Assembly (NCBI RefSeq): GCF_003967015.1
Contig: NZ_AP017560.1
Coordinates: 2,108,001-2,172,000 of the forward strand
DNA from: Pseudanabaena sp. ABRG5-3
Lineage (GTDB): Bacteria > Cyanobacteriota > Cyanobacteriia > Pseudanabaenales > Pseudanabaenaceae
Length of the DNA: 64,000 nt
Direction: 5' to 3'
Positions within the stretch are counted from its first letter, which is position 1, and every line of letters begins with the position of its first letter. Below the pieces are notes generated by a model, which saw only the letters and a list, made by a program, of their open reading frames with translations, did not search any database and had not been told where the DNA came from. Of the stretch, positions 8,046-43,176 are shown in pieces. The position numbers and the translations under genes were made by a program.

Positions 8046-8088
8046 AAATTTGCCTTTCAGTGTAAGATAGTAACCCGTGAAATTGTTT

Positions 8089-8162
8089 GGGCTAGTAGCT
8101 CAGTTGTATAGAGCAATCGCCTTCTAAGCGATCGGTCGATGGTTAGAGTCCATCCTAGCCTG
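8089..8162 (+). tRNA. trnR: tRNA-Arg (anticodon TCT)
   Basis: The full cloverleaf can be drawn: acceptor GGGCTAG with CTAGCCT, D-arm GCTC/GAGC, anticodon arm ATCGC-CTTCTAA-GCGAT with anticodon TCT, five-base variable loop, and T-arm GATGG/CCATC. The discriminator base is G, normal for arginine tRNAs that read AGA/AGG. The first acceptor pair is G-T. CCA is not encoded and is added after transcription. Confidence 0.95.
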
Positions 8163-8177
8163 TTCCTTAAATCCAAT

Positions 8178-8221
8178 AAAATTAGAGCTTAACAGGTCAA
8201 ACTTGTCAGGCTCTAATTTTT
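8178..8221. terminator. Intrinsic terminator after tRNA-Arg
   Basis: AAAATTAGAGC (8178-8188) pairs with GCTCTAATTTT (8210-8220), followed by T. It lies between the tRNA gene and the convergent gene ending at 8206, whose last codons it overlaps. Confidence 0.75.
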
Positions 8222-9123
8222 GGGTTTTGAGCGCAAAGCGCTTTAATTTCCCGTGAGTTAATCAGTAATTGCAAAGAGTCTCCATAGACAAGATCGTTAA
8301 TAGGCAAAGCAATCACCTCTAGCAACGATGGATTGTGGAAATGACGGATCTTAGTTTCGGGGTGGGGATAGTACACCCAACCATCATAGAGAGTCCCTTT
8401 GTGACGAACTTGGCAGGAAGAAAAGGAGAAATCTTCGGGTGGATGTTCAGTTGTCCAATTTACCTGACGAAAGGTGTAAAGGGGCTTCTGTATTGTGTAA
8501 GTGTAAGGTGAGATATCAATATTTAAAGTACCTCGAAAGTAGCTTGACAGGTCTAGCCCTAGATTTTGGAAGTAAGGAATTTGCATAGAGATTGTTCCTT
8601 TAGAATAAGGACTGTCCTCTGCAAGTCCTGATGCAACCCGATGACCTTGAATCAGTTTGCCATTTACAACATATAAACTCAGAGCATCTCTTACAACTTG
8701 CCTTGTGCGATCGCCTATACCTTGAGCTATGGATTCTCTATTCCCAGCTATATTTAATACTTTGACCTGTTGCTCAATTAGCCAATCATGTAAGGCAATG
8801 GAATCAGGATTGATGAGATAGGGTTTCTGATGTTTGATGCAGGATTCGATGGTTAACTTTGTTCCGTCGCTATTAGTATAGTCAGCAAAAATAACTGTTG
8901 CATCAGCAGTTAGGACATTGTGGATCGTGCGAATCTCGTAATCATCGCTATCTGATTCCAGCAAACCAAATTTGACAAGCTCTGGGTTTGCGCCTAACTC
9001 AGTAAGATAGCTTTTAGGTGCTAGACCACCCGTGGCAATACCCACATCTGCTGCCGCTAGTAATCCACCCCAGTCTGCACCAGTTTGTCCACCTGAAATG
9101 ATTAAAGTTACTAGAGTGTTCAT
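8206..9123 (-). CDS. cpYpsA-type SLOG domain fused to RibK-like (CTP-dependent riboflavin kinase) domain
   Basis: A 305-residue protein. Residues 1-148 are a Rossmann-like SLOG domain of the circularly permuted YpsA group, often labelled putative molybdenum carrier: ISGGQTGADWGG at 9-20 is the nucleotide-binding loop, and ADATVIF and DGTKLT follow. Residues about 156-288 resemble the archaeal CTP-dependent riboflavin kinase: G-x-x-V-x-SGL-x-E at 160-169, a GTLNIDI segment at 198-204, and a C-terminal EVIA-P....L..GDSLQLLI, matching the order GVVSGLGEG, GTLN, IEIIAP...LKDGD of the archaeal enzyme. The SLOG part is clear. The second domain is my own comparison from memory and needs a profile search. 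It is convergent with tRNA-Arg, with no operon partner. Confidence 0.75.
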   Translation of the reverse strand: MNTLVTLIISGGQTGADWGGLLAAADVGIATGGLAPKSYLTELGANPELVKFGLLESDSDDYEIRTIHNVLTADATVIFADYTNSDGTKLTIESCIKHQKPYLINPDSIALHDWLIEQQVKVLNIAGNRESIAQGIGDRTRQVVRDALSLYVVNGKLIQGHRVASGLAEDSPYSKGTISMQIPYFQNLGLDLSSYFRGTLNIDISPYTYTIQKPLYTFRQVNWTTEHPPEDFSFSSCQVRHKGTLYDGWVYYPHPETKIRHFHNPSLLEVIALPINDLVYGDSLQLLINSREIKALCAQNPKIRA

Positions 9124-9307: not shown

Positions 9308-9423
9308 TATAGCTATCGCCAAGTGTACTAGGACATAAAACCCAAGAATTGATTGGCGGCGCTCCGCGCCGCCAATCAATTCTTGGGTTTTGATTTGTCC
9401 TAAGACAAGTGACTGTAGCTATA
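9308..9423. repeat. MITE-like inverted repeat, family B copy 1
   Basis: The ends read TATAGCTATCGCCAAGTG and, in reverse complement, TATAGCTACAGTCACTTG, converging with mismatches through a shared AGGAC to a perfect central hairpin (9341-9395) with AAACCCAAGAATTGATTGG arms and a CGCTCCGCG apex. No coding potential. A second copy lies at 18592-18706. The rest of 9124-9437 shows nothing else. Confidence 0.8.
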
Positions 9424-43139: not shown

Positions 43140-43176
43140 GTAAGGATTGGCGGCGCGAAGCGCCGCCAATCCTTAC
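43140..43176 (-). repeat. Perfect hairpin between EndoU and small genes
   Basis: GTAAGGATTGGCGGCGC pairs exactly with GCGCCGCCAATCCTTAC around GAA. Apex of GCGAAGC form. It may act as a processing or stop site between the nuclease gene and the small genes. Confidence 0.75.

Follow-up and report, generated by a model that had tools for sequence, protein, structure and literature searches.

The window analysed here is a stretch of 64,000 nucleotides from the genome of Pseudanabaena sp. ABRG5-3 (contig NZ_AP017560.1, positions 2,108,001 to 2,172,000). On its minus strand it carries a single stop-free frame encoding a two-domain protein (Table 1); read in frame 1 of the plus strand, the interval is riddled with stop codons. 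The full-length AF2 model of the protein has a mean pLDDT of 90.6 and a pTM of 0.87, and in this model the last helix of an N-terminal SLOG domain (residues 136-149) runs directly into the first strand of a C-terminal domain with the RibK fold (residues 150-158), leaving no loose linker between the two. A convergent tRNA-Arg(TCT) gene is separated from the 3' end of the fusion gene by 42 bp. The closest relative (locus L097) has this neighbour as well; the 17 other loci scanned, which include duplicates of one place, do not. The window also holds a palindromic repeat (9337-9391 and 43149-43167), which is a REP/MITE-like element. Its core, GGCGGCGCTCCGCGCCGCC, found at 9355-9373, has 89 copies in the genome (44 on the plus and 45 on the minus strand, with at most one mismatch), and a reversed control had none.

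Table 1. Features of the fusion gene and its surroundings, in positions of the window
Feature	Position	Strand	Basis
Two-domain ORF, 305 aa	8206..9123	-	Open frame, full-length AF2 model
SLOG domain (cpYpsA), residues 8-146	8686..9102	-	PF12694, E 1.9e-31; PDB 3imk
RibK-fold domain, residues 150-297, unnamed bacterial family	8233..8676	-	Foldseek, VIA-align, hhalign
GHRVASG loop (160-166), opposite the glycine-rich GLGEGRY of MJ0056	8626..8646	-	Profile alignment
GTLN motif (198-201)	8521..8532	-	Aligned to MJ0056 42-45
Family signature WTTEHPPEDFSF (223-234)	8422..8457	-	69-row alignment
HPETK insertion relative to RibK (254-258)	8350..8364	-	Between P253 and the segment towards E269
Glu269, equivalent of MJ0056 E107	8317..8319	-	Profile alignment
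tRNA-Arg(TCT), convergent neighbour	8088..8163	+	Also the neighbour in L097 (G002)

The N-terminal half is a circularly permuted YpsA (cpYpsA) SLOG domain. It scores 109.2 bits with PF12694, where the cut-off is 26.2, and the structure 3imk is recovered both by phmmer among PDB sequences (E 5.6e-14) and by Foldseek with the AF2 model (E 1.6e-14, TM 0.84 by target length, rmsd 1.9). With cpYpsA proteins such as 3imk it shares a match over the full length of the domain, as well as the SGGQTGAD and LN.AG.RES stretches; unlike them, the Pseudanabaena copy is joined to a second domain. According to two earlier papers, SLOG domains are enzymes acting on nucleotides or sensors of nucleotide ligands, and sporadic SLOG fusions occur in phages, one of them with a guanylate kinase domain (PMC9503650, PMC6459960). 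The fused half matched Maribacter phage proteins labelled 'SLOG family protein' at 48% over 86% of the query and two of three IMG/VR contigs at 43%, compared with 29-39% for 13 cpYpsA copies from other cyanobacteria (drawn from 13 of the 16 genomes outside the genus that have a match). The Pseudanabaena subfamily is therefore nearer to the best phage copies than to those 13, hinting that the fused SLOG half may be of phage origin. The phage copies (L128, 6001-6453; L082, 4935-5465; L083, 5001-5456) are the nearest found outside Pseudanabaena (43-48%).

RibK-type riboflavin kinases have been described from archaea, and the initial annotation had read the C-terminal half as an archaeal-type, CTP-dependent domain of this kind. 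In Pfam searches at E<=10, the full fusion protein matched PF12694 only, the C-terminal fragment matched only PF01982 (DUF120, the archaeal RibK family; E 0.13, 12.3-12.6 bits, under the 25-bit cut-off), and neither matched PF01687, the RibF flavokinase family; the domain reaches the cut-off of no Pfam family and matches nothing in NCBIfam. Across the aligned members of its family, PF01982 matches at E<=1 were found in 25 of 69, all of them sub-threshold or weak (best E 0.0042). PF01982 itself gave no match in 38 genomes, comprising that of the window and those of relatives, and was detected in all four archaeal controls. The alignment behind these counts holds 69 of 81 sequences, near-copies and partial or frame-broken sequences having been dropped (L002, L003, L009, L013, L023, L038, L041, L047, L062, L066, L068 and L072).

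A separate AF2 model of the domain (mean pLDDT 89.3) matched, in Foldseek at E<=0.001, five structures of the RibK MJ0056, reportedly the subject of a structure paper by Ammelburg in 2007, and nothing else (best E 3.0e-7); TM values were modest (0.47-0.50 by query, 0.58-0.63 by target), with an rmsd of 5.4-6.4. VIA-align 2 superposed the domain on MJ0056 with a Z of 13.6 and an rmsd of 2.2 over 127 aligned residues, and ranked seven RibK/RbkR entries first (Z 13.6 to 7.6), followed by an entry at Z 6.9. Furthermore, hhalign of the 69-row family profile against eight RibKs returned a probability of 90%, an E of 1.4e-6 and a score of 44.2 over 124 columns, above its controls (12.8 and 15.5 with reversed profiles; no more than 27.3, with an E of 1.1e-3, in 60 column shuffles); with two RibKs in the profile the values were 74% and 2.7e-5. 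RibK was not recovered when the family profile was searched against PDB sequences, the best match being a de novo protein at E 0.78, so that the link to RibK rests on the fold, the profile-profile comparison and the weak Pfam matches. Given the fold matches and an hhalign score above the controls, common ancestry of the C-terminal family and RibK is well supported. A comparison that could have turned up an unrelated fold thus found that of RibK, and the initial reading of a SLOG domain fused to a RibK-like domain is borne out.

We conclude that the C-terminal domain represents a separate, bacterial branch within the superfamily of cradle-loop barrel riboflavin kinases to which RibK belongs. 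It is kept out of PF01982 because its score lies under the cut-off and the LR motif is missing; together with a changed glycine loop, these features do not allow its assignment to the CTP-dependent family, and any use of CTP is putative. The label 'archaeal-type' understates the separation, the bacterial sequences forming their own group apart from the eight RibKs in a quick tree without bootstrap. Among the titles and abstract openings listed in searches of the open-licence literature, none concerned the family or a SLOG-RibK fusion.

Seven residues of the C-terminal domain (G155, G160, G198, T199, N201, P253 and E269) pair in the profile alignment with residues invariant in all eight RibKs, and are kept in 65-69 of the 69 family members. 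The first two stand opposite G9 and G14 of MJ0056. Within the loop opened by G160, that residue, A164 and S165 are found in 69 of 69 members and G166, the G of 'SGL', in 57, so that the latter is not fixed in the family; in terms of the glycine-rich GxG, the G14 equivalent is invariant (69/69) and the G16 equivalent has no majority residue, giving a consensus of GHxVASG. The GTLN motif (G in 65, T in 68, L in 67 and N in 69 of 69 members) we take to be the equivalent of the Mg/phosphate motif of RibK: its T and N align with T43 and N45 of MJ0056, which presumably bind Mg together with the phosphates. Glu269, present in all 69 members and all eight RibKs at this position, faces E107, which we take to touch the flavin and to be the proposed catalytic or FMN-contacting glutamate. 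The initial annotation had listed G..V.SGL.E, GTLN and EVIA as a series in RibK order. GTLN and the E of EVIA do align with their MJ0056 counterparts, but G..V.SGL.E is probably out of register, since the predicted first strand (150-158) lies opposite residues 4-12 of MJ0056, with G155 at G9.

Other positions set the family apart from archaeal RibK. G16, P39, I82 and D122, invariant in RibK, pair with R162, Y195, V239 and Y280, and the C-terminal LR motif, whose R115 is invariant in the eight RibKs, is absent, residues 113-116 of MJ0056 facing a gap in the profile alignment. There are extra residues ahead of the GTLN segment, and the HPETK insertion, invariant in the 69 rows (H254 and K258 in 69/69), is missing from RibK in the alignment and lies on what is presumably the acceptor side; its region is modelled with a pLDDT below 50 at 255-261 in the full-length model and with a mean of about 74 over 255-264 in the domain model. 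The family signature WTTEHPPEDFSF contributes a further set of invariant residues in the 69-row alignment (W223, E230, F232, S233 and F234). If these roles of the MJ0056 residues are right, the phosphate and base machinery would be kept and the acceptor side rebuilt. Because the LR motif is missing, nucleotide binding could be altered or lost, this region of MJ0056 being, we assume, in contact with the nucleotide. Of the three cyanobacteria with small genomes (family f2) that were examined, two have a C-terminal domain lengthened at its C-terminus by about 65 residues (L093, 1610-2257; L094, 1312-1992); neither of these proteins matches Pfam at E<=1, and in L094 HPETK is degenerate (HRSTK).

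The family usually takes the form of a lone gene of about 150 codons. From the 283 relatives of a first scan, 79 loci were retained; most belong to cyanobacteria and Chloroflexota, and a few carry the label of another phylum. Binning errors may account for some of the loci outside the cyanobacteria: in the quick tree, the copies from Tatlockia (L079) and Gracilibacteria (L020) fall inside cyanobacterial clades. Domain matches, a few of them fragments, were found in 91 of the 291 cyanobacterial genomes sampled (42 of 130 genera). The family also occurs in Anaerolineae, and 5 of 120 genomes in the class of one Chloroflexota-type genome, the centre genome counted, have the domain.

Unlike archaeal RibK, this family stands beside RibF in bacteria. 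PF01687 was detected in 282 of the 291 genomes. Among the 91 domain-bearing genomes, 90 have it, the one exception being an assembly of 1060 contigs (G289), and so do 16 of the 17 genomes behind the other loci. A role as a RibF replacement is ruled out by these counts, and the suggestion of the initial annotation that the protein does not serve bulk FMN synthesis is probably correct: the genome of the window itself encodes RibF, the fusion and, on another contig, a stand-alone paralogue that is 62% identical. With RibF-type kinases the domain shares the type of barrel (Corynebacterium, Thermotoga and fission-yeast kinases reach Z ~5-6 in VIA-align), but it lacks their Pfam match and has a separate RibF gene elsewhere in the genome. 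A member of the RibK superfamily is also found in a bacterium in the case of the betaproteobacterial Azoarcus pAZKH copy (L086, 3974-4408), which, unlike the family described here, is a genuine PF01982 protein (E 4.4e-29). Its gene sits between those for the UbiX flavin prenyltransferase and a NUDIX hydrolase, in the company of phenylphosphate carboxylase genes, and it is possibly a dedicated FMN supply for prenyl-FMN.

The fusion has a far narrower distribution. The initial annotation had raised the question of its occurrence across cyanobacteria; in the 291-genome sample, which holds 12 domain-bearing Pseudanabaena genomes, that of the window among them, it was found in 7 of 25 Pseudanabaena genomes and nowhere else, the domain being mostly stand-alone. 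Likewise, among the 79 loci the SLOG half is present only in four from Pseudanabaena, which correspond to four of the seven fusion genomes. In a quick tree without bootstrap, the six intact fusions group as a single clade (SH-aLRT 96) nested within a clade of Pseudanabaena sequences (SH-aLRT 97). The fusion of lw0831 has a frameshift in its SLOG half, and SLOG copies with in-frame stops occur in two genomes of the genus (G020 and G188). SLOG occurs alone in G021, where the C-terminal domain lies by itself 30 kb away on the same contig, and in G019. The G019 SLOG copy differs from one fused lineage by a dS of 0.16-0.29, and that lineage from that of the window by 0.80-1.14; this copy has therefore probably lost its C-terminal half. 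Across the 15 pairs of the six intact fusions, dN/dS is 0.07-0.23 for the SLOG half and 0.10-0.26 for the C-terminal domain, which indicates that both halves are maintained under purifying selection. Outside the genus, 16 genomes have cpYpsA and 79 the C-terminal domain, and 3 of 266 have both, which is not above expectation (Fisher p 0.41); an obligate partnership with SLOG is ruled out by this count.

The neighbourhood of the family offers little by way of recurring partners. Clustering of up to three neighbours a side over the 79 loci (L003 left out, and the anchor misplaced in L066 and L068) gave a largest cluster touching 12 loci, of generic Pyr_redox-type similarity as judged from one Pfam-checked member; other clusters reached at most 6. 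We also scanned hand-picked neighbours with Pfam, omitting near-duplicates, short ORFs and the upstream side of L018 and including second neighbours at a few loci. No Pfam family occurred in more than 2 of the 64 upstream or 3 of the 66 downstream neighbours scanned, and no operon partner therefore recurs among them. In L051 a nucleoside phosphorylase gene overlaps the start of the family gene, the only PNP_UDP_1 among the 64 upstream neighbours. In L081 (867-1959) a SAM-dependent methyltransferase gene is closely followed, on the same strand, by the stand-alone paralogue, and is not a recurring neighbour.

Links to particular pathways were also considered. CofH (TIGR03551) gave matches far below cut-off in all 12 domain-bearing Pseudanabaena genomes (E 1.3e-5 to 1.9e-7); of the 91 domain-bearing genomes, 20 had weak matches only (E >1e-20) and at least 6 more had none. 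Since no CofH match in Pseudanabaena rises above the cut-off, a general role as a deazaflavin (FO) kinase was rejected. A defence-system reading was likewise set aside, with no PADLOC match at E<=0.1 for either the fusion or the stand-alone paralogue; PHROGs gave weak matches only, for the paralogue (best E 0.0065). A pattern-based scan of viral contigs detected no relatives of the C-terminal domain, nor were any found in plasmids, and a Foldseek search against viral models gave none at E<=0.001, a giant-virus riboflavin kinase coming second at E 0.012.

Taking these observations together, we favour a reading in which the fusion phosphorylates a small molecule other than riboflavin with an Mg-nucleotide as donor, this kinase being joined to a SLOG domain that binds or processes a ligand. 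From the comparisons above we infer its activity, donor, acceptor and coupling, and we hold the reading with about equal measures of confidence and doubt. In the C-terminal domain, the GHxVASG loop and GTLN would hold an Mg-nucleotide, whose terminal phosphate would pass to a hydroxyl group of a small acceptor, either different from riboflavin or not riboflavin alone. By closing over this acceptor, the HPETK loop could provide new contacts, with Glu269 as the putative base. The SLOG half, for its part, may bind or trim a nucleotide-derived ligand, the fusion either channelling the product to the kinase half or allowing the ligand to control it. Points against this reading are the missing LR motif, the failure of the family profile to recover RibK from PDB sequences, the lack of a recurring neighbour that would point to a pathway, the SLOG co-occurrence outside the genus that does not exceed expectation, and the broken SLOG copies within the genus. 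The 'modification or signalling enzyme' of the initial annotation is, for the fusion, a guess.

Other readings of the same evidence have to be weighed. It seems unlikely to us that the C-terminal domain is still a riboflavin (FMN-making) kinase, working beside RibF for a special, SLOG-regulated FMN supply. Such a role would suit a domain whose nearest solved fold is RibK and which keeps GTLN, P253 and E269, and the Azoarcus gene next to UbiX would be a possible precedent for local FMN supply; the HPETK insertion, the changed loops, the sub-threshold or absent PF01982 matches throughout the 69 members and the lack of a recurring flavin-linked family among the scanned neighbours all speak against it, though the generic Pyr_redox-type cluster does touch 12 of 79 loci. 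We consider it similarly improbable that the domain is not an enzyme but binds or senses a nucleotide or flavin, which would make the fusion a two-input sensor. T199 in 68 and N201, H254, K258 and E269 in 69 of 69 members across phyla are, in our judgement, more fixed polar candidates for catalysis than a binder usually needs, and no effector domain is attached, even though the LR motif is lost, the family gene stands alone without pathway neighbours and, according to PMC9503650, some SLOG domains are sensors. Finally, a RibK-like barrel turned to other chemistry (hydrolase, lyase or nucleotidyl transfer), with HPETK as the new active site, could draw on the invariant His and Lys of this insertion and its absence from RibK, but is very unlikely given that GTLN and the Glu are fixed, which would be needless had phosphotransfer been given up.

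For the family as a whole, the kinase reading leads to a broader and more tentative proposal, which we rate as somewhat short of probable: that the members of this branch use a nucleotide to phosphorylate a novel acceptor of the cofactor or nucleoside type, operating beside RibF in some Chloroflexota and in roughly one third of the sampled cyanobacterial genomes, and that the Pseudanabaena fusion makes or senses a nucleotide-derived ligand, which it then phosphorylates or by which it is gated. A bacterial sister family that combines a fixed presumed core with a new invariant loop, and that stands beside RibF, suggests an extra phosphorylation step in cyanobacteria and Chloroflexota. At about 150 residues, the stand-alone proteins are small and lend themselves to testing. 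The SLOG fusion offers a clue to the chemistry, and the case also bears on the use of SLOG domains outside defence systems.
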